From the NCBI GenBank assembly GCA_024401055.1, contig JAKSLT010000016.1:1-41910 (forward strand): DNA of 41,910 bases, read 5' to 3'. Position 1 is the first letter of the stretch; each line of letters opens with the position of its first letter. Below are positions 2,673 through 39,857 of the stretch, in pieces. A program made the translations under genes and the position numbers. The notes beneath the pieces were generated by a model. The model did no database searches and was not told the origin of the DNA. It was given only the letters and a program-made list of their open reading frames with translations. Origin of the DNA: Bacteroidaceae bacterium. GTDB lineage: Bacteria > Bacteroidota > Bacteroidia > Bacteroidales > Bacteroidaceae.

Positions 2673-4139
2673 ATGAAGGGTACGGCCCTCTTCGGCGGCA
2701 CGCAGGTAGTGAACATCCTTGTGAACATCCTGCGGGGCAAGCTCGTGGCCATTCTCCTCGGCACGCTGGGCATGGGCATCTCGGCGCTCTATATGAGCAC
2801 GCTGTTGCCCCTTCAGCAACTCTTTTCGCTCGGTATGCCCCTGGCCGTGGTGAGCGTCATCGCTGCCGCCGACGCCTCTAAGGCCGGCGGCCGCCATCTC
2901 ATGCGGGCGAAGGTAGAAGCCTACCGCCGCTGCCTCGTCGTGCTGGCGCTGCTGGGCGCCGCCGTGATGCTGATAGGCGCACCGCTTTTCAGCCGTTCGG
3001 CCTTCGGCGACACGGGCCACACGCGGGCCTTCATGTGCCTCGCCGCGGCCCTCGTCTTCCTCATTCTCGAGGCCGGCGAGACCGCCGTGCTGCAGGCGCG
3101 CCGCCAGATGCGGCAGGTGGCCGTGCGCAGCGTGGTCAACGCCGTGGGCAGCCTCCTTATCGGCGTGCCGCTCTACTATTTCTTCGGCGTGCGCGGCATC
3201 GTGCCCGCCATTGTGCTGACGGCCGCCGTCGTGTGGGGCTACTCCCGCTGGCAGACGCGCCGCCTGTTCCTTTGCCAGCCCTCCCAGAGCTGGAGCGCCA
3301 CGTGGTACCTCGGCCGCGGCATCATGGCCCTCGGCTTTTTCATGATGCTCGCCGCCCTCTTCGGCAACCTCACCAATTACGCCCTCAACGCCCTCATCCG
3401 CAGCCTCGGCGGCGTGTCGGACGTGGGCCTTTACCAAGCCGCCAACAGCATCACCTCGCAATATGTAGGCCTCGTGTTCGCCGCTATGGCCACCGACTAT
3501 TTCCCCCGCCTGGCTTCCCTCAAGGACGACCGCGAGGGCTTCCACACCCTCGTCCACAAGGAGTACGAACTCGTGATGCTCATCGTCGCACCCCTCGTGG
3601 CGCTGCTCATTCTCACGGCTCCGCTGCTCATCCGCGTGCTCCTCACCACCGAGTTCCTTCCCCTCACCGGCGTCATCCGCCTCATGGGTCTTGCCATACT
3701 CTGCAAGGCCGCCTGTTTCCCCCTCGACTACGTCAGCATGGCCCACGGCCGCAAACGCTATTTCTTCTGGATGGAAGGCGTGTGGTGCAACGTAAAGACA
3801 TTCGCCGTCATGGCTCTCTGTTATTACTTCTGGGGTCTCCAGGGACTGGGCTGGGGCGCGCTGCTCAGCGGTCTTATCGACGTAGTTGTCACCACCGTCA
3901 TGACGCACTGGTTCTTCGGCATCACCACGTCGCGTCTGCAAATCCGCTTTTTCATTCCCCTCATGCTCTCCCTCGGCGCGTGTGCAGCCTTCTCGCTGTG
4001 CCCCAACGCCGTCGTGGCCTACGGCGGCATGACGCTCCTCACCGCCGTCCTGAGTCTCGTGTGCCTGCGCCTTCTCGCCCGCCGCGTGAACCTGATGGAG
4101 TGGCTGCGTGGAAAGTTGCATTTCGGCTTTCGCCGATAG
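2673..4139 (+). CDS. Wzx-type polysaccharide/lipid-linked oligosaccharide flippase (MOP superfamily)
   Basis: A 488-residue, strongly hydrophobic protein with about 12-14 predicted membrane spans. It starts with GTALFGGTQVVNILVNILRG, the typical first helix of Wzx/RfbX-like flippases (oligosaccharidyl-lipid branch of the MATE/MOP superfamily), and length fits that family. It should move an undecaprenyl-linked glycan from the cytoplasmic to the periplasmic face of the inner membrane. I chose the ATG at 2673 because the first helix begins right after it and because the in-frame upstream extension translates the heptanucleotide repeat. Two glycosyltransferases lie just upstream. No polymerase (Wzy) gene is in the window. 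Confidence 0.85.
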   Translation: MKGTALFGGTQVVNILVNILRGKLVAILLGTLGMGISALYMSTLLPLQQLFSLGMPLAVVSVIAAADASKAGGRHLMRAKVEAYRRCLVVLALLGAAVMLIGAPLFSRSAFGDTGHTRAFMCLAAALVFLILEAGETAVLQARRQMRQVAVRSVVNAVGSLLIGVPLYYFFGVRGIVPAIVLTAAVVWGYSRWQTRRLFLCQPSQSWSATWYLGRGIMALGFFMMLAALFGNLTNYALNALIRSLGGVSDVGLYQAANSITSQYVGLVFAAMATDYFPRLASLKDDREGFHTLVHKEYELVMLIVAPLVALLILTAPLLIRVLLTTEFLPLTGVIRLMGLAILCKAACFPLDYVSMAHGRKRYFFWMEGVWCNVKTFAVMALCYYFWGLQGLGWGALLSGLIDVVVTTVMTHWFFGITTSRLQIRFFIPLMLSLGACAAFSLCPNAVVAYGGMTLLTAVLSLVCLRLLARRVNLMEWLRGKLHFGFRR

Positions 4140-4288
4140 GGGAGGCATTGGCGCGTAGTCCTCGCTGTAGGGAAAGCGCCGAAGGTGCGGCAGATTGGAG
4201 AATAGGGCGCGAGCCCTACCCTCTATTATGCCGTCCTTTCAGGACTTACAAGTATTACAAATTATTGTTGTCGGGTAAAAAGTACCGG

Positions 4289-4484
4289 CGATACCCCGAA
4301 GGGGTTAAACAACCCAGACAGGGGCAACGCCCCTGGTACATAGTGCTGTAATTACGGCCGCCCCAGCGGGGCACAACAGCAAGAGCCTGTGGATGTTGTG
4401 CCCCGCCGGGGCGTGCATGGTTGTCGCACTTGCGACCAGGGGCGTTGCCCCTGTCTGGGTTGCGTACCCCCTTCGGGGCATACG
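4289..4484. repeat. ~196-bp composite palindrome (REP-like hairpin cluster)
   Basis: Outer arms of about 50 bp are inverted copies. Within them 28 bases (4310-4337 and 4435-4462) are exact reverse complements and contain the small hairpin AGGGGCAACGCCCCT and the flanking CAACCCAGAC; the arm ends carry CCCCGAAGGGG. Nested inside are inner arms 4360-4378 and 4394-4412 (with GCGGGGCACAACA), differing at one base, around a 15-base loop. The whole can fold as one long hairpin or as several small ones. It sits between the convergent flippase and dut genes. Repeats of this look are common in Bacteroidales genomes, as far as I recall. Confidence 0.85.
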
Positions 4485-4530
4485 TAAGCCCCCTCACATA
4501 GATATCTTCGGGTCAAAACAGTTTTTGTGT

Positions 4531-4620
4531 TCGCCTAGTCCTGCATTTAGTCGCGCGAAAACGGGCTTCTTTTTCGCTTAGTCCTGCATTTAATTGCGCG
4601 AAAACGGGCTGTTTTTGTGA
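4531..4620 (+). repeat. Two 43-bp direct repeats containing the CTAGTCCTG motif
   Basis: Two successive units share TAGTCCTGCATTTA, then GCGCGAAAACGGGCT and a T-rich end. The motif CTAGT begins at 4535 and the matching TTAGT at 4578, a 43-bp spacing. The first half of each unit matches the unit of the 21-bp array that follows about 100 bp later and of the larger array at 30738, so this looks like a diverged, longer-period relative. Confidence 0.75.
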
Positions 4621-4702
4621 AAAATCGGGTTTTAGCGGGGCGATTTTGGCTTCGGATTGGGCGTTTTGCGCCCGGATTTTTGCGCTGTTTTCATTAAAAT
4701 GT

Positions 4703-4890
4703 CACTAGTCCCCTTTTAATTTTCGCTAGTTCCCTTTTAATTTTCACCAGTTCCCTTCCGCTAAAAATTAAATGGGAAGTAGTACAAATTAAAAGGGGAC
4801 TAGTTCAAATTAAATGGGAAGAAGTTCAAATTAAATGGGAACTATTTTGAATTAAAAGAGGACTAGTTCAAATTAAAAGGGAACTATTTC
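4703..4890. repeat. 21-bp-phased repeat array 1 (3 forward + 6 reverse units)
   Basis: Forward units carry CTAGT, CTAGT and CCAGT at 4705, 4726 and 4747, each followed by CCC and usually TTTTAATTTT. From 4765 the same unit appears in the opposite orientation, with the AAATT core starting at 4765, 4786, 4807, 4828, 4849 (as GAATT) and 4870. All spacings are exactly 21 bp. Each unit thus has a CTAGT-like core, a C/T run and an AATT block. Unit sequence varies while the spacing does not. TAG and TAA stops fall inside units, so it is not coding. Confidence 0.92.
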
Positions 4891-16175: not shown

Positions 16176-16284
16176 TTTGCTCTGGCGGGCGACCGGCGGC
16201 GGGGCAAGGCGACCGGCGGCGAAATAAAAAAGGAAAAAGACCTGCGGGAGACCCTCTTTTTACAAGGGATGCCGACCCGGTGTG

Positions 16285-16344
16285 TTTTTAACAGCTGTTG
16301 AAATTGTTTTTAACAGCTGTTGAAATGAAATTAAAAGGGAAGTA
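16285..16344 (+). repeat. Two AACAGCTGTT palindromes 22 bp apart, plus one stray 21-bp-array unit
   Basis: The 22-bp segment around the perfect palindrome AACAGCTGTT occurs twice (palindromes at 16290-16299 and 16312-16321), each preceded by TTTTT and followed by GAAAT. Right after it, AAATTAAAAGGGAAGTAG (16327-16344) matches a reverse unit of the 21-bp arrays at 4703 and 30738. The two palindromes sit on the same helix face and could be an operator or a dispersed repeat; no known regulator is assigned. Confidence 0.7.
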
Positions 16345-16411
16345 GGAAAAACGCGGAGAAATCAGGGTCTGCGCAAGTCAGAGAAGGCGCTCTTTCCTTC
16401 GTTTTTTCTTC

Positions 16412-16603
16412 GCTTTTTCGTAACTCTGGCCTTCGGCCCAAGTTACTTGTGCTCGGAAAAAAAAGAAAAACATTGTTTCTCTTTGTTTTTCGCTCGCTTT
16501 TTCGTAACTCTGGCCTTCGGCCCAAGTTACTTGTGCTCGGAAAAAAAAGAAAAATATTGTTTCTCTTTGTTTTTCGCTCGCTTTTTCGTAACTTTGCACG
16601 CGG
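16412..16603 (+). repeat. Tandem promoter-region duplication upstream of dnaG (85 + 84 bp + partial third copy)
   Basis: Copy 1 (16412-16496) and copy 2 (16497-16580) are nearly identical and start CTTTTTCGTAACTCTGG; a third copy begins at 16581 as CTTTTTCGTAACTTTGC and then diverges into the dnaG start. The 1-bp length difference is an extra A in AAAGTTAC of copy 1. Each copy carries TTTG and a -7-like box; these read TAACTCTG in the first two copies and TAACTTTG in the last. Each full copy also has a GGCCTTCGGCC-centred hairpin. The stretch 16176-16284 holds nothing I can identify. Confidence 0.9.
16566..16596 (+). promoter_or_regulatory. Predicted dnaG promoter
   Basis: TTTG (16566-16569), 19 bp, TAACTTTG (16589-16596): an exact match to the Bacteroidetes vegetative consensus. 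The start codon is only 15 bp beyond the -7 box, so the 5' leader would be about 10 bases or less, close to leaderless, and no Shine-Dalgarno site is seen. Confidence 0.8.
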
Positions 16604-29119: not shown

Positions 29120-29707
29120 TCAGTCCACGAAGATGTGGGAACTGTTAGCCATTCTGCGCATGTTGATGAGTGCGTAGTGCATGCGGCCCAGGGCGGTGTT
29201 GAGGGGCACGCCCGTCTCGTCGGCAATCTCCTTGAAGGAGAGATCCTGGTATATGCGCATGAACACGACGCGGCGCTGCTCTTCGGGGAGCTTTTCCATG
29301 AGGGCTTTCACGTCCTCGAGAACCTGCTCGTTGATGATTTCCGTCTCGCGGCTGTTGGTGGCGAGCTGCAGGTCGTTGAACAGTGCACCGTCGGTGTCCT
29401 CGTCGGAGGTGGTGGGCATGTTGGCGGCATCGCGGAACTCGTCTAAAATAATATTGTGTGCGATGCGCGTGAGCCAGCCGTAGAATTTGCCCGACTCGGT
29501 GTAGCGTCCTTGGCGGATGGCCATGATTACCTTAACGAACGTCTCCTGAAAGACGTCGTTGGCGTGGTCTTCGTCGTGGACGATGAACTGTATGTAGCTG
29601 AAGAGCCTATCTTTGTATCGGTCAAGTAAAACATCAAAAGCGCAGTCGTTTCCTTCCGCGTACATTTTAACCAACTTCTCGTCGGTCAGTTTCTGGATGT
29701 CGTTCAT
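29120..29707 (-). CDS. ECF-type RNA polymerase sigma factor (sigma-70 family)
   Basis: The 195-residue protein has region 2 (about 20-85: YKDRLFSYIQFIVHDEDHAN, DVFQETFVKV, GWLTRIAHNIILDEFR) and region 4 (about 130-180: PEEQRRVVFMRIYQDLSFKE, then IADETGVPLNTALGRMHYAL, the helix-turn-helix). It should direct RNA polymerase to a specialised promoter set. No anti-sigma gene lies beside it; the upstream neighbour across 1.7 kb is the FAS1-SusCD operon in the opposite direction, so it could control that, but no evidence links them. It has its own consensus promoter. Unlike the other ECF gene of the window it stands alone. Confidence 0.95.
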   Translation of the reverse strand: MNDIQKLTDEKLVKMYAEGNDCAFDVLLDRYKDRLFSYIQFIVHDEDHANDVFQETFVKVIMAIRQGRYTESGKFYGWLTRIAHNIILDEFRDAANMPTTSDEDTDGALFNDLQLATNSRETEIINEQVLEDVKALMEKLPEEQRRVVFMRIYQDLSFKEIADETGVPLNTALGRMHYALINMRRMANSSHIFVD

Positions 29708-29838: not shown

Positions 29839-29984
29839 ATATTTTGCGTTTTTTTTCGTTGTGCTAAGAATTCCGTGCTGCGTAATGGCCCGTCGGAGGT
29901 GGCAAAAACAGCAGTCGCGCGGCGAATCCGCACTCAGCGCATGCGGCATATTTTTTTGTGACGATATATTACTTGGCACAACAT

Positions 29985-30188
29985 GTTTTTATTTATCAAG
30001 AATTTAAGAATTAAGGAATTTTGTATTGTGTTCTGATAATAAATTTTTAGGAATTATGCAGTGCTGTGCATTGCTGAATTGTTGTCCGCAGGAATTCTGC
30101 TGCATCAAGCAGCTAATTCAAAAGAATTCCAGGCAAGAAGGCTAACGAAATAATTCTTTAATTCTGTAATTCTTGATAAAAATAAATG
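29985..30188. repeat. MITE-like element with ~38-bp terminal inverted repeats
   Basis: The left arm (about 29985-30022) contains TTTATCAAGAATTTAAGAAT and the right arm (about 30149-30188) its near reverse complement, ending TTCTTGATAAAAATAAATG. The interior is AT-rich with GAATT-type repeats and the small hairpin GCTGCATCAAGCAGC (about 30100). No ORF or transposase is inside. Size (about 204 bp) and structure fit a non-autonomous mobile element, but no target duplication could be confirmed. Confidence 0.65.
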
Positions 30189-30344
30189 ACAGATAGGTTT
30201 GTGCCCCAAAATATATCATTGCCATTTTTTTTGAATTTAGCCTTGCGCGTTTGAAAAGTTTTTTGTATCTTTGCAGATGTCGGTTCCCGTTGCGCCTTTC
30301 TTCCCATTCCCTTCACTTTTCCCTCAATATCTTCCCCGGTCTCT

Positions 30345-30407
30345 TCAATCATTTTGCCATTTCGCCCAATCATTTTTCCATTTTCCTCAATCATTTTCCC
30401 ATTTTTC
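30345..30407 (+). repeat. Three 21-bp direct repeats (CAATCATTTT type)
   Basis: CAATCATTTT begins at 30346, 30367 and 30388, each followed by a CCATTT-type block. The period is exactly 21 bp, as in the CTAG arrays, but the unit is different. A -7-like box TATCTTTG (30266-30273) lies upstream without a correctly spaced -33 element. Confidence 0.8.
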
Positions 30408-30415
30408 TCAAAAAT

Positions 30416-30694
30416 ATGTATTACTCTCTCATTTGCGTGTTCGTATGTCTGCCGGGCCTTCCAGGTGTCCGCTTGGGCGCGGTGTGCCGTGGCCTGAAGT
30501 TAGGCGGGGCGGCCAACCTGCATGAAGGCCTCCTGCTGTGCCCCGTGCGTTCCCTTGTCGGAACGGGGGTGGGGGAGGCTGCCGCACTGGCTGACGCAGT
30601 TCCTGCAAATGGAATGAGTGATTTCGCTCGCGGCATCATCCTCCTTGCGGAATGCTGCGCTGATGGGGCCGGTCGGCGACTTTCTCTGCCTTGA
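30416..30694 (+). CDS. Doubtful 92-residue ORF, Cys/Gly/Leu-rich
   Basis: The ORF starts at ATG 30416 and ends at TGA 30694. Its codon use (CTG, GTG, GGC, ATC) is like that of real genes in the window, and residues include many Cys, Gly and Leu (VCRGLKLGGAANLHEGLLLC). No domain, signal peptide or family is recognisable. It is the only gene-like stretch in the otherwise gene-free 29708-31402 region and could be a decayed gene remnant. I would not rely on it. Confidence 0.2.
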   Translation: MYYSLICVFVCLPGLPGVRLGAVCRGLKLGGAANLHEGLLLCPVRSLVGTGVGEAAALADAVPANGMSDFARGIILLAECCADGAGRRLSLP

Positions 30695-30737
30695 AAATCT
30701 TGTGCAAGGCTGTTTCCTGTTTCTCATTCGGTAAGAA

Positions 30738-31007
30738 TTACTTCCCTTTCGCTTTGGACTAGTTCCCATTTAATTCGCACTAGTCCTCTTTTAATTCGCA
30801 CTAGTCCTCTTTTAATTCTCACTAATCCCCTTTTAATTCGCACTAGTCCTGATTTAATTCGCACTAGTCCCCATCTAATTTGAATTAGTCCTGATTTAAT
30901 TTGAATTAGTTCCCATTTAATTTTTCACTACTTCCCTTTTAGTTTTTGGCGAAAGGGAACTAGTGAAAATTAAATCAGGACTAGCGAAAATTAAATCAGG
31001 ACTAGTG
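30738..31007. repeat. 21-bp-phased repeat array 2 (10 forward + 3 reverse cores, CTAG type)
   Basis: Forward units start at 30738, 30759, 30780, 30801, 30822, 30843, 30864, 30885 and 30906 (all 21 bp apart), then 30928 (22 bp). A typical unit is CTAGTCCTCTTTTAATT plus a four-base spacer, often CGCA. Reverse-oriented CTAG cores follow at 30960, 30981 and 31002. At the switch, CACTACTTCCCTTT (30926-30939) pairs with AAAGGGAACTAGTG (about 30952-30964), making a hairpin. More distant relatives (CACTAGTGCCGATTTAAT at 31095) lie just downstream. Unit type and overall layout match array 1 at 4703. Confidence 0.92.
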
Positions 31008-31254
31008 CAAAGCGGTAGCCGTTTGCTGCGGGAGCGGACGGTTTTAGTCGGGATTTAACGCGGCGAAGGCCGTGGCCGTCGGCGAGTGGCGGCGCACTAG
31101 TGCCGATTTAATCCTGCCAAAACGTCCATTTTGATTAAAAAATCGGCCCGCTACTTCCCTTTTGCGGTTTTCGCCTTGTCTGGGGGCTCGGAAGGGGGCC
31201 GCGGAGGAAAAGTAAATCTTAAAAAAACTTAATTATTGACTTTTCTTTGTTAAT

Positions 31255-31289
31255 TTTGTTCGCTAAAGTGAAAAAAATGACTAAATTTG
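31255..31289 (+). promoter_or_regulatory. Predicted promoter of the FAS1-SusCD operon
   Basis: TTTG (31255-31258) is followed after 23 bp by TAAATTTG (31282-31289), matching both boxes, slightly longer than the usual spacing. A second perfect -7 box, TAATTTTG (31251-31258), lies upstream but lacks a good -33 element. The leader would be about 110 bases. No riboswitch or SusR-type operator is recognisable. Confidence 0.55.
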
Positions 31290-31402
31290 CATGCTGAAAA
31301 ATTATAGGAATTGCGCGCGTATATAATGCGCACGGCAAAATACGCCGGAATATCCGTTTGACAACATTTAACAATTCACAACAATATCAACAAATTAACA
31401 GT

Positions 31403-34400
31403 ATGAAAAACCGTTTTTGCAGAACGGGCAAGAGCATGCTCTATGCCGCTTGCCTTCTTTCGGCTCTTGGGTTGTCGTACTCCTGTTCGGACGATTATGA
31501 TCTGGATGACACAATGCCAGACTATCTCGGTCAGAGTATTTACAGCGAACTGAGTGCCAGAAACACCTTCAAGAAAACAATCCGACTGATTGATGACTTG
31601 AACTACAAGGACGTGTTGGACATGACGGGCAGTAAGACGCTCTTCGTAGCGCCCGACACCGCTTTCGACACGTTCTTTAAGGACAACCCCTGGGGTGTGC
31701 GCTCCTATGAGGAGCTGACCCTTCCCCAGAAGAAGTACCTGCTTTACAACGCCATGTTGAACAATGCCTACGTGATGGAAATGATGTCCAACACGGAGAC
31801 CAACGGCAACATGGGCAACGTAAATTTCGTCAGCGGCAAGAACATGTGTCTCCGTCAGGGCTCCGCCTCCACGGCCACGGACACCATCCCGTACTTCCAC
31901 TGGTATGAGCTGCCCAACAACCAGAACCTCGCTACCGACGATGACGAGGGCGATGCCAAGTATGGCAAGTTCTGGGAAAAGTATCGCCGCCAGGACCAGA
32001 AGGAAGGCATCTTCCTCGTGTGCGACAACACGACGCCGATGATGACCCACTTCCTGGAGAACAACCTGAAGTTTAAGAATATCACCAATGACGACGTAGC
32101 CTTCATCCTCGGCGTGCCCACCTACGGCACGGAGAACCGCAGCTACATCTACGGCGCCCGCGTGATAGAGCAGGACGTGACCTGTATGAACGGTTACTAC
32201 GACGTGCTCGACCGTGTGCTGCTGGCTCCCAGCAATATGGCGGAAATGATTCGCACGAACGGCAAGACGAACCTGTTCAGCCGCATTCTGGACCGTTTCA
32301 GCGCTCCCGTGTATGACGCCACGCTGACCAACAACGCCCAGGCCCTGTATGCCAGCGTCACGGACTCCGTCTTCGTGAAGCGCTACTTCAGCACCCGCTC
32401 CCAGAACGGCAAGTTCAACACCAACCCCGTGACGAAGAACGCCATGGCCGACTTCCCCGTGCTGAACTTCGACCCGGCCTGGAACGCCTACACCTCCAGC
32501 ACCACCGCAGCCGCAACTGAGGATATGGGCGCCATGTTCGTGCCCAGCGACGATGCCCTGAAAGCCTACTTCCTGACGGGCGGCGGCCGCGTGCTGATGG
32601 ACCGTTACGCCGTGGAGCGCCCCGTGACCGAGGCCAACCTCGAACTCAACATGGATCAGGTGCCTCTGGACATCATCAGCGCCCTGGTGAACAACCTGAT
32701 GAAGGCCTCCTTCTGCGAGACGGTGCCCTCGAAGTACCTGACCATCATGAACGACGCCCGTGACCAGATGTTCAACGGCGGCGACTATCCTTCGCTGGAC
32801 AGCTTCAAGGCCTCCATCGACAAGTGCCTGCTGGCCAACAACGGTGTCGTTTACGTGATGAACAAGGTCATCTCCCCTGCCGACTACGCCTCCGTAATCG
32901 CCCCCGCCCTCTACAGTAAGAACACGAAGGTGGTGCGCGCCGTCGTTCGCGCCGACGAAAACTTCATCCAGGGCTCCGACTACGGCAACGCTCCCTTGCA
33001 GAAATACTTCAGCACCTACCTGAAGGCCATGCAGAGCAGCTTCTCGTTCTTCGTCCCCGTTGACGAGGGCCTCGGCACCTACGGCTATGTCGATCCTGCC
33101 TCCATCGCCACCCAGAACCCGCGCAACTACCGCTACTGGGTATGGACCTATGCCACGGGCAGCAGCGGCACCAACAGCGCCAAGACCATCTCCGTGCAGG
33201 CCGACGCCTACAACTACGACCTCACCACCGGTCAGCCCGACCAGCTGAACGAGAAGGACTGGAAGGGCAGCTCCTTCCGCTCCGCCTACTCGCAGCCCGT
33301 CACCCAGGGCTACGGCGAAACCAAGCGCGCCCTGCTGACCGAGATGATCAACCAGCATATCATCGTGCACGACAACAATGACAACAACGGCGTGCTGAAC
33401 AACTCCCGCAAGTTCTACCTGAGCCGCGACGGTGCCCCCGTCTATATCAAGAGCGGCAACGCCGGCAACGGCGAGAACATGGTTCTGGCCGGCGGCTGGC
33501 AGTTGCAGCTGGAGAATGACACCATCCAGGGCAACGAGCATCAGTGTAAGGTAATCGAGGCCTACGACCAGTCGAAGAGCACCAACGGCTACGGTAACGG
33601 TCACACCTTCCTCATCGACCGTCCCATGCAGCCCTCCATGCAAAGCGTCTATGGCATCCTCGATGCCAACGAGAGCTTCAGCGCCTTCAAGGACCTCTGC
33701 AACGGCTTTGACGCCCAGCTCCTGCAGGAAGCAGGCTTCAAGGACAAGGCAGCTGCCGAGGCCGTGGCCAGCGGCAGTATCACCGATCCCTCTTCCTATA
33801 CTGATGCCGACTGGCAGAGCGCTGCCGAACTCTACAAGATTTTCGGCGAAGGCGAAGTGAAGGCTGGCAGCAAGACCATTGCCAAATACTTCGGCACCGA
33901 CAAGCTCGTGCGCTCCTTCAATAACTACAACTACACCGTCTATGTTCCTACTAACGAAGCAGTCCAGAAGGCTCTGAGCCTGGGTCTCCCCACTTGGGAC
34001 ACCATTAAGGACTTCGTGGACGCCCACATGGAGCAGCAGCTCGACTCCCTGGGCCAGCCTATGACCGATGATGCCGGCAACCCCGTGATGGCACTCTCCG
34101 CCGACAACAGGGTGAAGGCACAGGCCATGATAACGATGCTGACCAACTTCATCCGCTACCACTTCCAGGACAACAGCCTCTTCGTGGACAACGTGACGGA
34201 TACCAATACGAAGCAGACCGCCTGCATCGACGAGGTCAACAACGTTTACCTGCCCGTAGTAGTCAGCCAGACTCCCAACGCCATGAGCGTGAAGGACAAT
34301 GCCGGCAACAGCCGTCAGGTAGTGACCTCCGGCGGTAAGTATAACCTCCTGGCTCGCGACGCTCACTTCAACGTGAATCCCCGCACGAGCGCAACCTCAT

Positions 34401-34552
34401 GTAAGCTTGTAGAGACGAGCAGCTATGCAGTGGTACATCAGATTGACGATGTGCTGAACTTTACCAAACTCACGGGCGGCCGCTACGACAGCGCCTGGAG
34501 CACAGCTGCCAAGGCAAAGAAGTTCGTCAAGAAGTTCCAAATCAAGAAATAA
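31403..34552 (+). CDS. Multi-domain fasciclin (FAS1) surface lipoprotein
   Basis: The protein is 1049 residues. I chose the ATG at 31403 because a lipoprotein signal follows it directly, with the lipobox ending LSYSC (Cys28) and then SDDYD, the acidic type of motif that marks surface-exposed lipoproteins in Bacteroidetes. FAS1-type 'H1' strands recur: KTLFVAPDTAF (78-88), AMFVPSDDAL (~377), FSFFVPVDEG (~549) and YTVYVPTNEAV (~844), so about four FAS1 units are present, with VVYVMNKVISP-like closing strands. FAS1 domains mediate adhesion or ligand binding. It is the first gene of an operon with SusC and SusD and a second FAS1 protein (9-bp gap to SusC), which suggests a partner that captures ligand or anchors the complex. 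Confidence 0.88.
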   Translation: MKNRFCRTGKSMLYAACLLSALGLSYSCSDDYDLDDTMPDYLGQSIYSELSARNTFKKTIRLIDDLNYKDVLDMTGSKTLFVAPDTAFDTFFKDNPWGVRSYEELTLPQKKYLLYNAMLNNAYVMEMMSNTETNGNMGNVNFVSGKNMCLRQGSASTATDTIPYFHWYELPNNQNLATDDDEGDAKYGKFWEKYRRQDQKEGIFLVCDNTTPMMTHFLENNLKFKNITNDDVAFILGVPTYGTENRSYIYGARVIEQDVTCMNGYYDVLDRVLLAPSNMAEMIRTNGKTNLFSRILDRFSAPVYDATLTNNAQALYASVTDSVFVKRYFSTRSQNGKFNTNPVTKNAMADFPVLNFDPAWNAYTSSTTAAATEDMGAMFVPSDDALKAYFLTGGGRVLMDRYAVERPVTEANLELNMDQVPLDIISALVNNLMKASFCETVPSKYLTIMNDARDQMFNGGDYPSLDSFKASIDKCLLANNGVVYVMNKVISPADYASVIAPALYSKNTKVVRAVVRADENFIQGSDYGNAPLQKYFSTYLKAMQSSFSFFVPVDEGLGTYGYVDPASIATQNPRNYRYWVWTYATGSSGTNSAKTISVQADAYNYDLTTGQPDQLNEKDWKGSSFRSAYSQPVTQGYGETKRALLTEMINQHIIVHDNNDNNGVLNNSRKFYLSRDGAPVYIKSGNAGNGENMVLAGGWQLQLENDTIQGNEHQCKVIEAYDQSKSTNGYGNGHTFLIDRPMQPSMQSVYGILDANESFSAFKDLCNGFDAQLLQEAGFKDKAAAEAVASGSITDPSSYTDADWQSAAELYKIFGEGEVKAGSKTIAKYFGTDKLVRSFNNYNYTVYVPTNEAVQKALSLGLPTWDTIKDFVDAHMEQQLDSLGQPMTDDAGNPVMALSADNRVKAQAMITMLTNFIRYHFQDNSLFVDNVTDTNTKQTACIDEVNNVYLPVVVSQTPNAMSVKDNAGNSRQVVTSGGKYNLLARDAHFNVNPRTSATSCKLVETSSYAVVHQIDDVLNFTKLTGGRYDSAWSTAAKAKKFVKKFQIKK

Positions 34553-34561
34553 TAAAATATC

Positions 34562-37500
34562 ATGAAAAATACAAAGTATCTTCTGACGCTCATCCTCTGC
34601 TTCGTGTGTGTTGCGGGATTCGCCCAGCAAAAGCGAATCTCCGGTCATGTGTGGAGCAAGGGCGATGGGTCAATCATGATGGCAAATGTCGTTGAGAAGG
34701 ACGCCAACGGCCGTATCATCTCTGCCGTGCAGACTGATATGAACGGTAATTTCTCTCTCACCATCAAGAACCCGGCCAACAAGCTGGAAGTATCATATAT
34801 CGGCTATCAGAAGAAAACGATGTCCATCGGTGCGCAGACCACATTCCGCGTAGAACTGATAGACCGTAACACTCTGGCAGAAGCCAAGATTACGCAGACG
34901 CGTAAGACCAAGAGCGGTGGCCTGACCATTCCCGAACGCGAATTGAGTACCGCCACCCAGACCCTCGATATGGAAAACATGCAGGGTCTGTCGTTCGAGA
35001 CCGCCGGTGAAGCCCTTCAGGGCCAGATTGCCGGTCTTGACATCGTGAGCAACTCCGGTAACCTGGGTGCCGGCTCAAGCATGCGCCTGCGCGGTACGAG
35101 TACTATTAATGGTAATCAGGAACCCCTCATCGTGGTGGACGGCTATCCCTTGGAAGACCGCAGCACCGAGGACCTCGACCTGACCGATATGGAAAACACC
35201 GAGCAGTTTGCTACGCTGTTGCAGGTAAGCCCTGACGACATCAAGACGATTAAGGTGTTGAAGGACGGTGCCTCCACCGCCGTTTGGGGCTCTCGCGGCG
35301 CCAACGGTGTAATTGAGATTACCACGAAGCGTGGCCGCCGCGGCAAGACGCGCGTGGAATTCAACTACCGCTTCACGGGTGCCTGGCAGCCCGAAGGCCG
35401 TAAGCTGCTCAACGGCGACGGCTACACCATGATGCTGAAGGAAGCCTACTTCAACCCCCGTCAGAGCGACGCCGCTTCCGGCATCGTAGAGTTGATGTAC
35501 CTTCAGGACCATCCCGCCTACTACGGCAACTACAACAAAAACACCGACTGGGTGAAAGAAGTGACGCAGTTCGGCCAGACCCATGACTACGGACTGAGCC
35601 TCGCCGGCGGTGGCGAAAAGGCTACCTTCCGTATCGCTGCCAACTACAACCACGCCACGGGTACCATCATCAAGCAGTCGATGGACCGCTTATACACCCG
35701 TCTCGCCTTGGACTACTACGTGAGCGACCGCATTACGTTCCGTTCCAACTTCGGTATGAACTATACGAAGAACAACAAGAACTACGGCAACGACATTCTC
35801 AGCCGCGCATACTCCGCCATGCCTAACATGGCTATCACGCGCCAGGAATATGACAACGTGACCGGTGAATATTATGACACCGGCGAATACTACCTCATGC
35901 CTAAGGCTGCTGGTGCCGCCGGCCTCCTCGACAACTCGAGCGGCCTGTCCAGCTACTATCTGAACGACATGGTAAGTAACGGCAACCCCGTGGCCCGCGC
36001 CAACCTGGCCAAGGCCGTGGAGAGCAACTACAGCATCACGCCGCAGTTTGACATTGAGTACAAGCTCCTTGGCAAGGAAGACGATGAGTATCATCTCGAC
36101 TACAAGGGCTCCGTACAAATCTCTGCCGGTACCCTGTCCAACGATACTTATTTCCCCGCAGCCCTCAGCTATGACGACTGGAGCAGCGGTCTGAACGCCA
36201 CTTCCAACTCCGAGTCGAAGAGCTTCCGCTTCACTACTCAGCACCAGCTCACCTTCATCCCCGTGTTTGAGAACGAGAACCATCAGTTCCAGATGCTGGG
36301 CCGCTATGAACTTGTGACGAGCAGCAACTCCGGACAGTCCACCACCACCACGGGTGTGAACGGTGGCATCACCGACCCCACGGTGCCCGGCTATCTGAGC
36401 GGCCTCTCCTCTTCCACTGGCAAGTCCCGCGAAATTGACTTCATCGCTCAGGCTCACTACAGCTACATGTCAAAATATAACCTTGACTTAGCCCTCCGTG
36501 CTGACGGTAGCAGCTACTACGGCTCCGAGCAGAAATGGAAGCTCAACGCCGGTGTGTCCGGCCGTTGGAATATCAGCGACGAAAAGTTCTTCCAGCCTCT
36601 CACGAAGGTAATCAGCATGCTCTCCATCCGCGGCGGCTGGGGTCTGACCGGTAATCCCGTTTCCGACCAGGGCCTTATGTTCAACAAGTATAGCACTCTG
36701 GGCAACTACAACGGCGTGCAGGGCCTGTATCCCTCCAGCCTCCGCCTCGTGGAAATCCGTCCGGAGAAGGCCATGGACTGGAACATCGGTGCTGACCTTC
36801 ACTTCCTCAACGACCTTATCAACATCGACTTCAACGTCTATGACAAGAAGAACAGCGACCTGCTGATGCGCGGCGTGGCCATACCTACTACCACTGGCTA
36901 TAGCTCACTGAGCTGGAGCAACGTCGGCGAAATGGAGAACCAGGGTTGGGAACTTAACATGTGGACCCGTCCTATCTTCAAGGTGGGCAAGTTCTCTGCT
37001 GTGCTCCGTGCCAACTTCGCCCAGAACATCAACTCCATCAACTCCATGGATGCCAATGTGCTGAACTCAATGAATGACGACTTCAACTACAACGGCGGTA
37101 ACGAGCAGATCCTGAAGCGCTGCCAGATAGGCAATGCGCTCGGCGGTATCTACGGTTTCCACTTCAAGGGCGTCTATGTGTATGACTACGACCACAACGG
37201 TTACTTCGACCCCCGCACGGGCAAGAATGACTATTATGACGCACAGGGCGTGGAGAACACCGCAGCCCATGCTCTCGCTGCTGGCTATGAAGGCGTGAAT
37301 ATCTACAACGCCGCTCCTGTGGCCCGCGACGCTGAAGGCAAGGTCATCTATGACAAGAGTGGCAATCCTCTGCCTATTATATATAATTATGGAGGTGTCA
37401 ACTATCAGTTCGGTGGCGGCGATGTGGCTTATGAAGATATCAACCACGACGGCCAGATTAACGAACTTGACATCCAGTACCTCGGTTCTTCCAGCCCGAA

Positions 37501-37993
37501 GTTCAACGGCGGTTTCGGCGTTGACCTTACCTACGGACGCTGGACGCTGAAGTCCAACTTCAACTTCCGCGTGGGCAACAAGATTATCAACATTGCCCGC
37601 ATGAAGTCTGAGGATATGCGCAACAACCATAACCAGAGCGCAGCCGTAAACTGGCGCTGGCGCAAGAACGGTCAGGTGACTGAGATACCTCGTGCCCTGA
37701 GTACTAAGATTGACGCTTCCTACAATGCCCTCGTAAGCGACCGCTACGTGGAGAAGGGTGACTATCTGCGCTTCCAGTACCTGCAGCTGGGCTACAGCCT
37801 CGACCCGAAGGTCATCAAGAAGGCCGGATTCTCACAGATCCGTTTTACCGCTTCAATCAATAACCTCTTTGTATGGAGCAAGTACACAGGTGCAGACCCT
37901 GACCACACTCAGTCGCAGTATGGTCCCTGTACTGACAATGACACCACGCCCCGTTCCCGTTCGTTCACGGCCGGTGTAGTAGTAGGCTTCTAA
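34562..37993 (+). CDS. SusC/RagA-like TonB-dependent outer-membrane transporter
   Basis: The 1143-residue protein has a Sec signal (LLTLILCFVCVAGFAQ), a CarboxypepD_reg-like N-terminal domain (about 25-100, RISGHVWSKGDG...YIGYQKKTMSIG), then the TonB plug (GEALQGQIAGLDIVSNSGNL, SSMRLRGTSTINGNQEPLIV, VDGYPLED, KVLKDGASTAVWGSRGANGV) and a 22-strand-type beta-barrel ending with an aromatic residue (GVVVGF). No STN domain precedes the plug, so it is not a direct FecA-type sensor. With SusD it should import a glycan or peptide across the outer membrane, driven by TonB-ExbBD. The FAS1 partners make the ligand unclear; no glycoside hydrolase is in the window. Confidence 0.95.
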   Translation: MKNTKYLLTLILCFVCVAGFAQQKRISGHVWSKGDGSIMMANVVEKDANGRIISAVQTDMNGNFSLTIKNPANKLEVSYIGYQKKTMSIGAQTTFRVELIDRNTLAEAKITQTRKTKSGGLTIPERELSTATQTLDMENMQGLSFETAGEALQGQIAGLDIVSNSGNLGAGSSMRLRGTSTINGNQEPLIVVDGYPLEDRSTEDLDLTDMENTEQFATLLQVSPDDIKTIKVLKDGASTAVWGSRGANGVIEITTKRGRRGKTRVEFNYRFTGAWQPEGRKLLNGDGYTMMLKEAYFNPRQSDAASGIVELMYLQDHPAYYGNYNKNTDWVKEVTQFGQTHDYGLSLAGGGEKATFRIAANYNHATGTIIKQSMDRLYTRLALDYYVSDRITFRSNFGMNYTKNNKNYGNDILSRAYSAMPNMAITRQEYDNVTGEYYDTGEYYLMPKAAGAAGLLDNSSGLSSYYLNDMVSNGNPVARANLAKAVESNYSITPQFDIEYKLLGKEDDEYHLDYKGSVQISAGTLSNDTYFPAALSYDDWSSGLNATSNSESKSFRFTTQHQLTFIPVFENENHQFQMLGRYELVTSSNSGQSTTTTGVNGGITDPTVPGYLSGLSSSTGKSREIDFIAQAHYSYMSKYNLDLALRADGSSYYGSEQKWKLNAGVSGRWNISDEKFFQPLTKVISMLSIRGGWGLTGNPVSDQGLMFNKYSTLGNYNGVQGLYPSSLRLVEIRPEKAMDWNIGADLHFLNDLINIDFNVYDKKNSDLLMRGVAIPTTTGYSSLSWSNVGEMENQGWELNMWTRPIFKVGKFSAVLRANFAQNINSINSMDANVLNSMNDDFNYNGGNEQILKRCQIGNALGGIYGFHFKGVYVYDYDHNGYFDPRTGKNDYYDAQGVENTAAHALAAGYEGVNIYNAAPVARDAEGKVIYDKSGNPLPIIYNYGGVNYQFGGGDVAYEDINHDGQINELDIQYLGSSSPKFNGGFGVDLTYGRWTLKSNFNFRVGNKIINIARMKSEDMRNNHNQSAAVNWRWRKNGQVTEIPRALSTKIDASYNALVSDRYVEKGDYLRFQYLQLGYSLDPKVIKKAGFSQIRFTASINNLFVWSKYTGADPDHTQSQYGPCTDNDTTPRSRSFTAGVVVGF

Positions 37994-38012: not shown

Positions 38013-39857
38013 ATGAAAATGAATAATATATATAATAAGGTGTTACTTGGCGCAGCCATAGTATGCACCGGGTTGATGGCATCCTGCGAGGACTATCTGA
38101 CAATCTTGCCTACCGACTCCATCCCAGAGGAAAACTTCTGGCAGAGCAAGGGTGACGTGAACAACGTTTGTGCATCCGCTTATTATAAACTGACACAGGA
38201 GGACGCTCTCTCCAGGATTCTCTATTGGGGTGAGTTCCGTAGTGATAATGTAGAACTGAAGGACATGACCAACACTTCCATCAGCCACATGATGGAAGGT
38301 GTGCTCCAGCCTACTGAAAGTATGTTCAAGTGGGATGCGTTTTACAGCGGTATTGCCTATTGCAACAAGGTTCTTGAGAAGGGTCAGGAAATGATATACA
38401 AGCAAACCGATGATACCTTCCAGCCGGGCGAATGGCGCTCTATCAGGGCAGAAATGCTCAGCTTGCGTGCCTTGTATTATTTCTATCTGGTACGTGCCTA
38501 TCGTGACGTGCCCTTTATAACCAAGACAATCAGCACCGATGCTGAAGCTCTTGAAGCACGTAAGGGCGTCCCCGCCACTCAGGGCGTAGTAATTCTTGAT
38601 ACCCTCATTAACAATCTCGAAGAGTGTAAAGACCATGCCGCCATGAACTTCGGCAACAGCCTTGACAACAAGGGCCGCTTTACAAAGCGCAGTGTGCGCA
38701 TGCTGCTGGCAGACATATATCTGTGGCAGGGCTGCATGCTGAAGCACGGCATCGACAAAGGCTATGTCCTCCTTAACGAGCAGGGTGATACTATCAAGAC
38801 ACAGAGCGAACTGGACACCAAGGCCACTGCCAACTTCCAGCGCGCCATTGAACTTTGCGATGAAATATTGGCTGAGATGAATAGCGATTACAAGAAAGAA
38901 ATCGATAAGAACCCCAACCAATATACAGAGGAAGAGAAGAAACAGCCCTATCCTCTCTATCAGATATCCCAGAGTGGTAATACTACCGATGATAAAGTTT
39001 ATAACAAGATATGGGGTGCCGGTAATTCTGACGAATCCATCTTCGACCTCCAGTATGACGGTGATCAGAACAGCAACACCGTGCTGGGTTCTATGTACTA
39101 CAAAACTTCCAGCAAGTCTGCAGCCAAGATGGTGGGTAAGCCTTCTCTCTTCACCACTATCAACACGATTGACAACGACGGAACGCTGAAAGGCTTCGGC
39201 AAGACTGATATTCGCCTCCATGAGTCCGTGTCTTTCACAGAACTTACGCAGTCGGAGTATCCTATCTGGAAGAACTCTGTAGAGAGCGTAAGCTTCAAGG
39301 ACAAGGAAAACATGATGGAAGGCGGCGATGCTGAGCCTCGTGCTACGGCTAATGCCAACTGGCCTATTTACCGTCTCAGCGACCTCATGCTCATCAAGGC
39401 CGAGTGTATCGCTCGCCTGGCCTATAAGGAAAACACCCCCGAACTTGTTGAAGGCTTCCGCCTTGTCAACAAACTGTTCGAGCGCTACAATCCCGGTCTG
39501 GACTCCACAGGCTCCGGTATGGCCAACACCTCCGATCGTTTGAAGTATGATTACTTCAAGGACAAGAGCGCCAGCGCTCTGCTTGAACTCGTCTATCGTG
39601 AGCGTCAGCGTGAGTTCTTCTCCGAAGGCAAGCGCTGGTTCGACATCGTGCGTCAGGCTGAGAGCGTAAACGGTACCTCTGAGGTCCTGAGCAGTTGGGT
39701 AGGCGCAAGCAAGAGCGTTCAGACTCGTCTTCGCAAACTGATTGCTATGTATGTGCCTTATTATAACGACGAGCTGAAGGTCAACCCGTCTCTCGTGCAG
39801 AACGAGGTGTGGGATAAGTACACACCCAATAGTAGTAAACCCACAGAGAATCAGTAA
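38013..39857 (+). CDS. SusD/RagB-like surface lipoprotein
   Basis: A 614-residue protein with a lipoprotein signal (lipobox LMASC, Cys25, followed by EDYLTILP) and the SusD start PTDSIPEENFWQSKGDVNNV. The N-terminal TPR-like helices (ALYYFYLVRAYRDVPFITK, the typical SusD 'RAYRDVPF' block) and the C-terminal RERQREFFSEGKRWFDIVR motif are clear. It caps the SusC barrel and binds the ligand on the cell surface. It is 19 bp from SusC and 5 bp from the next FAS1 gene. It is longer than many SusD proteins (about 500-560), with extra sequence in the middle (about 270-420). Confidence 0.95.
   Translation: MKMNNIYNKVLLGAAIVCTGLMASCEDYLTILPTDSIPEENFWQSKGDVNNVCASAYYKLTQEDALSRILYWGEFRSDNVELKDMTNTSISHMMEGVLQPTESMFKWDAFYSGIAYCNKVLEKGQEMIYKQTDDTFQPGEWRSIRAEMLSLRALYYFYLVRAYRDVPFITKTISTDAEALEARKGVPATQGVVILDTLINNLEECKDHAAMNFGNSLDNKGRFTKRSVRMLLADIYLWQGCMLKHGIDKGYVLLNEQGDTIKTQSELDTKATANFQRAIELCDEILAEMNSDYKKEIDKNPNQYTEEEKKQPYPLYQISQSGNTTDDKVYNKIWGAGNSDESIFDLQYDGDQNSNTVLGSMYYKTSSKSAAKMVGKPSLFTTINTIDNDGTLKGFGKTDIRLHESVSFTELTQSEYPIWKNSVESVSFKDKENMMEGGDAEPRATANANWPIYRLSDLMLIKAECIARLAYKENTPELVEGFRLVNKLFERYNPGLDSTGSGMANTSDRLKYDYFKDKSASALLELVYRERQREFFSEGKRWFDIVRQAESVNGTSEVLSSWVGASKSVQTRLRKLIAMYVPYYNDELKVNPSLVQNEVWDKYTPNSSKPTENQ

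Follow-up and report, generated by a model that had tools for sequence, protein, structure and literature searches.

The locus studied here, a row of 21-bp repeats (array 2) lying in the gap before a FAS1–SusCD operon, raises the question of whether such an array serves the operon that it adjoins, as a sequence-only reading of the same DNA had suggested, or is one copy among many of a system with another meaning. The window, by which we refer to the whole stretch of 41,910 nucleotides that was analysed, is contig 12 of the source genome (G000; Bacteroidales, 2.3 Mb, 103 contigs, 83% complete).

The array reported at 30738–31007 is real: it is made up of 21-bp units, nine in forward and two in reverse orientation, with partial copies besides (Table 1). 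With at most four mismatches to ACTAGTTCCCNTTTAATT, the forward units start at 30758, 30779, 30800, 30821, 30842, 30863, 30884, 30905, and 30927, successive starts being 21 bp apart in seven instances and 22 bp apart in one, and a tenth, weaker copy stands in register at about 30739, in agreement with the near-constant spacing originally claimed. TRF described the forward arm as 7.9 copies of period 21 (score 190) and the reverse arm as 2.5 copies. Throughout the window, substitution-only matching at the same threshold yielded 23 units, whereas none of 20 mononucleotide shuffles had more than one. Among the stray units listed earlier, those at 16329 (−) and 31096 (+) were recovered; the one at 4535 found no match with up to six substitutions, and by eye that site holds a variant one base longer than the unit, which variant appears again 44 bp further on. 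Beside the stray at 16329, TRF also detected an exact 22-bp tandem unit (16283–16326, 2.0 copies) and an 84-bp tandem unit (16403–16593, 2.3 copies).

The gap of array 2 is divergent, with the sigma factor on one side and FAS1 on the other, and the end and the start of the array lie 275 and 544 bp, respectively, before the promoter-like TAAATTTG, which figures fit the 250–550 bp first estimated. The CAATCATTTTNCCATTT unit of the second array in that gap had one more match in the stretches fetched from G000, in L033. In addition, the gap carries a dispersed repeat of about 270 bp (29953–30224) that is 89% identical to L029 3449–3719, which segment is matched by L043 and L057 at 87–90% and in part by L050 at 97%. 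Elsewhere in the window, at 4261–4491, a GC-rich repeat matches segments of L020 and L035 on both strands (76–84%), and those segments are matched by L031 and L079 as well.

Table 1. Coordinates in the window of the repeat arrays, the stray units, and the genes and promoter-like site around array 2.
Feature	Position	Strand	Remarks
Array 2, forward arm	30737..30944	+	21-bp units, nine of them from 30758 onwards, preceded by a weaker one
Array 2, arm switch	30945..30967	.	partial reverse unit at 30947-30964, which could pair with the last forward unit
Array 2, reverse arm	30968..31006	-	two units, starting at 30968 and 30989
Stray unit	31096..31113	+	3 mismatches
Stray unit	16329..16346	-	2 mismatches
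Array 1 (naked, like array 2)	4692..4888	.	adjoins a dUTPase gene
Second 21-bp-period array, in the same gap as array 2	30346..30411	+	another unit, CAATCATTTTNCCATTT
ECF-type sigma factor gene	29120..29707	-	left of the array 2 gap
Presumed promoter-like TAAATTTG	31282..31289	+	before FAS1
FAS1 (fasciclin) gene	31403..34552	+	right of the array 2 gap
SusC-like gene, then SusD-like gene	34562-37993, then 38013-39857		3' of FAS1

The count of two arrays given by the sequence-only reading proved far too low. The unit pattern, at no more than two mismatches, occurs 300 times in G000 (164 forward and 136 reverse; the reversed control gave 0), and in the 71 stretches fetched around array sites among the matches listed (about 100 of the 300, plus two further listings), together with the window, we found at least 68 clusters of two or more units. 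Six further sites, most of them at contig ends, hold a single unit, and two more arrays (L093, L094) were reached through the boundary motif described below, so that the total in the genome is about 75 sites, a lower bound, with many arrays ending where contigs end. None of the arrays overlaps a predicted gene beyond a 30-bp tolerance, the gene calls being those of our own codon-usage script. In 60 other genomes the pattern is near chance, the reversed control giving matches of the same size; among 36 congeners three have one two-mismatch match each, which is the chance level; and other genomes of the order have at most four matches each. The two-unit pattern gave 0 matches in genome_contigs and 0 in viral_contigs, from which collections records very near the genome of the window may be left out.

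A boundary motif, TTTTGTCAAAATWTTTTACA, lies near 38 of the 68 arrays (TTTTGTCAAAATNTTTTACA, at most four mismatches, within 420 bp); the remaining 30, both window arrays included, are naked. In G000 the motif has 99 copies at no more than one mismatch, often near contig ends, and, where both copies of a pair are at hand, these run in the same direction and are 390–673 bp apart. Two pairs of elements, L013/L025 over 562 bp and L011/L069 over 576 bp, are each 97.7% identical at different sites, thus indicating that the family disperses. A target-site duplication was not visible by eye in the element alignments, which had no empty site. A small repeat around TGCCTGCGGCGCTACATGAATTAGGAATAAATT is present by eye in inverted copies on both sides of some bounded elements, outside the boundary motifs of L027, L028, L071, and others, and is in tandem at some.

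The same motif, when sought with at most two mismatches in 41 genomes of the genus, gave 101 matches in G000, 37 in G010, 16 in G062, and 10 in G001, with one to three in five others and none in 32; a variant of the pattern gave 47 matches in G001 and 46 in G062. At the loci retrieved from G010, G062, and G001, the motifs are paired in the same direction 213–375 bp apart. As an observation apart, the boundary motif also occurs inside holA (peptide IVKYFDKNQ) and in a nearby XRE-HTH gene in both G000 (L092, contig C9, 1564 and 3341) and G010 (L101, contig C120, 1966 and 4018); the xre of G001 (L285) carries the motif variant of G001 and G062, and in species where elements of this kind were not detected the holA/xre stretch has diverged. 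That the ends of the elements might follow the XRE-HTH stretch was not borne out in G003, whose stretch is one base from the G001-type end: eight matches were found there at no more than three mismatches, none of them paired, and one of the eight was the xre itself.

The proposal of a family with a fixed geometry, for its part, was supported by this larger sample. Forward units precede reverse units in 61 of the 66 clusters with at least three units, the five exceptions including both window arrays, array 2 only through the stray at 31096. Consecutive same-strand spacings (66 arrays, 462 units) are multiples of 21 in 327 of 335 instances, the other eight being shifted, and the spacings at the arm switch, taking the 12 commonest values, equal 20 modulo 21 in 52 of 54 positive instances; three more arrays, with units out of order, gave negative values. 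The letters are held less tightly. Adjacent units differ at a mean of about 4.5 of 21 positions, with an identity of 0.785, to be compared with 0.753 for other same-strand units of one array, 0.696 between the arms of one array, and 0.724 between arrays; positions T3, C8, and T12–A15 are nearly fixed, with a few recurrent words in the middle. Since only 12 of 297 adjacent pairs are identical, and adjacent units are barely more alike than those of different arrays, the pitch is not simply the trace of fresh duplication; rather, the in-phase spacings, persisting despite the divergence of the units, indicate that the pitch is held more tightly than the letters. The flanks of the bounded elements provide a measure of what decay alone might do: in 60 pairwise alignments we counted 67 gap openings versus 1450 substitutions, which ratio predicts about 82% of unshifted adjacent pairs.

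When we compared relatives, the strongest autocorrelation of the element interiors was at lag 21 in G000, G010, G062, and G001, with different unit letters in each. The z values were 32.1 in G000 (21 elements with both ends), 12.5 in G010 (9 elements), 8.9 in G062 (4 of 6 fetched loci, two one-motif loci being dropped), and 5.9 in G001 (3 elements), where lags 42–44 and 22–23 were also raised; 11 of the 20 arrays of G009 were included in that sample too. At a TRF score of 60, the 17 loci of G010, G062, and G001 contain a single noncoding 21-bp array, so that the period there is seen only through autocorrelation. Two other congeners, the nearest among those searched by HolA identity (G009, 69%; G063, 67%), share a 22-bp near-palindromic unit, ACTAGTGTATAGACTAGTTTTC, with 42 and 26 matches, which unit has single two-mismatch matches in G004 and G014 and none in G000 and 36 others. 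By eye, the units of G009 and G000 have common ends (ACTAGT ... TARTTTTC) and a different middle, and on those letters the two are likely homologous. The sequence-only reading had held that relatives devoid of arrays would speak against a functional family; 36 congeners do lack arrays of this sequence, but arrays of 21 or 22 bp with other sequences are present in the genus and in the order. Because relatives keep nearly the same repeat length with different letters, spacing seems to matter more than sequence among them, in line with the comparison of spacing and sequence proposed at the outset.

The signal extends to the order. In 80 Bacteroidales loci (1.12 Mb), all lying around RNase G genes, noncoding-like arrays with a TRF score of at least 60 number 33 for periods 21–22, two for periods 17–20, and nine for periods 23–26, and 26 of the 80 loci have such an array; in an Escherichia coli control (250 kb of one strain) two arrays were called, one with period 33 and the other with period 98. 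The unit showed unusual dyad symmetry (p ≤ 0.05) in 9 of 22 period-22 arrays versus none of 13 period-21 arrays. These comparisons bear on the possibility that the arrays are neutral minisatellites, spreading and decaying with no function for host or element, which their restriction to one species, their intergenic setting, and their variable number of units would fit. Decay at the observed divergence, however, predicts many more than 8 shifted spacings in 335, and the same 21-bp pitch is written with other letters in three more species, so that we consider this explanation improbable.

With the family so delimited, the relationship of array 2 to its neighbouring operon can be weighed. A regulatory or insulating function specific to FAS1–SusCD, as the sequence-only reading had it, would agree with the short distance to the promoter-like site and with the orthologous gap of G009 (Candidatus Equimonas faecalis, the closest named relative, whose RNase G is 79% identical), in which sigma factor and FAS1 are again divergent neighbours with about six 22-bp units between them (L234, ~3990–4125). 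In that gap the sigma-side and the FAS1 promoter-side parts align with the window, TAAATTTG lying in a conserved stretch, and the array itself lies where no alignment with the window (29855–31214) was obtained. Nevertheless, the at least 68 arrays of the same family stand beside other genes, in dozens of gaps, and the congeneric FAS1 regions speak likewise. A FAS1 match was obtained in 45 of 58 genomes of the genus, and loci for 30 of these: upstream of FAS1, four or more copies of period 21–22 occur in only five (G000, G009, G027, G007, and G078), weaker rows of period 20–23 in four (G021, G032, G065, and G024), and no such array in 21, the loci of G005 and G021 ending upstream at a contig end. 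We therefore regard a function in that operon as very improbable. Array 2 looks like an ordinary member of the family and not like a dedicated SusCD regulator, which dedicated control is not needed to explain it; and its case is a caution against taking an array of this kind to control the operon next to it.

The correspondence at the sigma/FAS1 gap, where two species each carry an array, though of differing units, also touches on a second possibility: that the arrays are fixed and not mobile, being host chromosomal sites, as for nucleoid organisation or domain boundaries, of a fast-evolving DNA-binding protein. In favour of such sites are the phase, kept beyond the indel rate of the flanks, the nearly fixed unit positions, and the genes flanking the arrays, which pair between G009 and G000 in 8 of 14 instances versus 2 of 18 for other genes (Fisher p 0.008, on a G000 sample chosen around arrays). 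Of the 20 arrays of G009, five are in gaps whose two flanking genes adjoin in the G000 stretches, and of those five gaps the sigma/FAS1 one alone is occupied in both; for three of the remaining four, G000 has its array beyond one of the flanking genes. Positions thus turn over while retaining some locality. That turnover, the array-less majority of FAS1 regions, and the movement attested by the 97.7% identical bounded elements all count against fixed host sites, which we accordingly hold to be rather unlikely.

Yet another reading would have the arrays act as RNA, in the form of long hairpins at the ends of genes, where they would terminate transcription or shield the mRNA. The predicted fold of 30738–31007 is indeed far below that of 200 shuffles (z −11.2), and in codirectional gaps naked arrays lie towards the upstream gene, close to its 3' end (n = 14, mean relative position 0.25, p 0.0002), no such bias being seen for arrays with a motif (0.44, n = 17, p 0.19); these p values, like the others given here, are guides, copies of one element not being independent. 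Units that would pair, however, are not more alike than others (identity 0.749, n = 85, versus 0.756, n = 351), and array 2 itself sits in a divergent gap. Nor is array 2 an intrinsic terminator, the lone terminator-like site of 30600–31300 being at 30658–30678, outside the array, and shuffles giving 1.3. To an action as RNA we attach very little credence.

We lean, on balance, towards reading array 2 as one naked member of a dispersed repeat family, peculiar to this species, whose behaviour resembles that of a BrickBuilt-like, minisatellite-bearing miniature mobile element and whose units are putative phased binding sites. Twenty-one base pairs equal two helical turns of DNA, and the units would most likely be binding sites placed at that distance, along which a protein, whether the host's or the element's own, might load on one face of the DNA over both arms; a recombinase may act on the boundary motif, and the naked arrays would either have arisen out of bounded elements or be propagated by that same machinery. 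This mobile-element reading is weakened by the 30 arrays without a motif and by the retention of some positions, such as the sigma/FAS1 gap; in addition, the two ends carry one near-palindromic motif in direct rather than inverted orientation, which arrangement counts against MITE-like ends. A broader proposal, which we put forward with reserve as possible but not probable, is that of a genus-wide system whose DNA-binding protein would alter its recognition sequence from species to species in concert with its sites on the chromosome; the system would keep the two-turn pitch, the intergenic setting, and some positions, that of the present locus among them, and would reside partly on elements bounded by direct TTTTGTCAAAAT-type motifs. 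If true, that system would be a bacterial satellite-like one, conserved in its geometry.

In bacteria, intergenic repeats are usually defined through their sequence. The property kept here is the pitch, of 21 bp in four congeners with different letters and of 22 bp in two others, and the excess of 21–22-bp noncoding tandem arrays in the 80 Bacteroidales loci fits that view. If this is correct, pitch would offer a means of detecting related systems overlooked by searches for sequence, and it would become testable whether Bacteroidales chromosomes bear phased nucleoprotein arrays at dozens of sites, and what binds them.

With respect to known systems, the iterons of replication origins have units of about 17–22 bp with a pitch near two helical turns, but the 21-bp arrays described here, unlike those of origins, occupy dozens of chromosomal gaps. 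A CRISPR array was ruled out, the units being contiguous and devoid of unique spacers, and no known structured RNA of Rfam matched the window at the gathering score. The REP, BIME, and REPtron families resemble the present one in being high-copy intergenic inverted or palindromic units, and differ from it in that the present arrays have a tandem 21-bp pitch and no GTAG-tagged hairpin, the REP type being marked by GTAG-tagged palindromes of 20–40 bp beside a RAYT gene (PMC3733652). Four Y1_Tnp (RAYT-like) genes exist in G000 (L080–L083; contigs C61, C16, C82, and C22), and the repeats near them belong to families other than the 21-bp unit; a REP tied to a RAYT gene was rejected, as array units occur in only L080 among the four 3.3-kb loci, and away from the gene-flanking repeats. 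MITE464/PgRS of Porphyromonas gingivalis, also a Bacteroidales MITE-like element with internal tandem repeats, has a unit of 41 nt, not 21 bp (PMC4596501).

Our literature search listed no paper describing, for this genus, phased arrays of 21 or 22 bp, the nearest system being the BrickBuilt MITE of P. gingivalis. In the portion of the account available, BrickBuilt has 23-nt contiguous tandem units at 19 intergenic loci, with a leader, a tail, and short inverted ends resembling the termini of the IS5 family (PMC4596501). Shared with it, within that portion, are the order, the contiguous short tandem units at many intergenic loci, the restriction to a species, the copies with and without flanking parts, the predicted long stem loops, and the signs of mobility (PMC4596501). 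The differences, on the same partial account, are a unit of 21 bp in G000 and 22 bp in G009 instead of 23 nt, a count of no fewer than 68 arrays, an in-register layout of two arms, and ends that consist, when there are any, of a single motif in direct copies, the separation being made by length and ends and not by unit letters; a leader and tail with inverted terminal repeats were not found, the window arrays having no boundary motif within 420 bp (PMC4596501). Because unit length and ends differ, the arrays are not a demonstrated member of the BrickBuilt family; the best reading is that they are a variant of the minisatellite-bearing miniature mobile elements, among which BrickBuilt is the closest.
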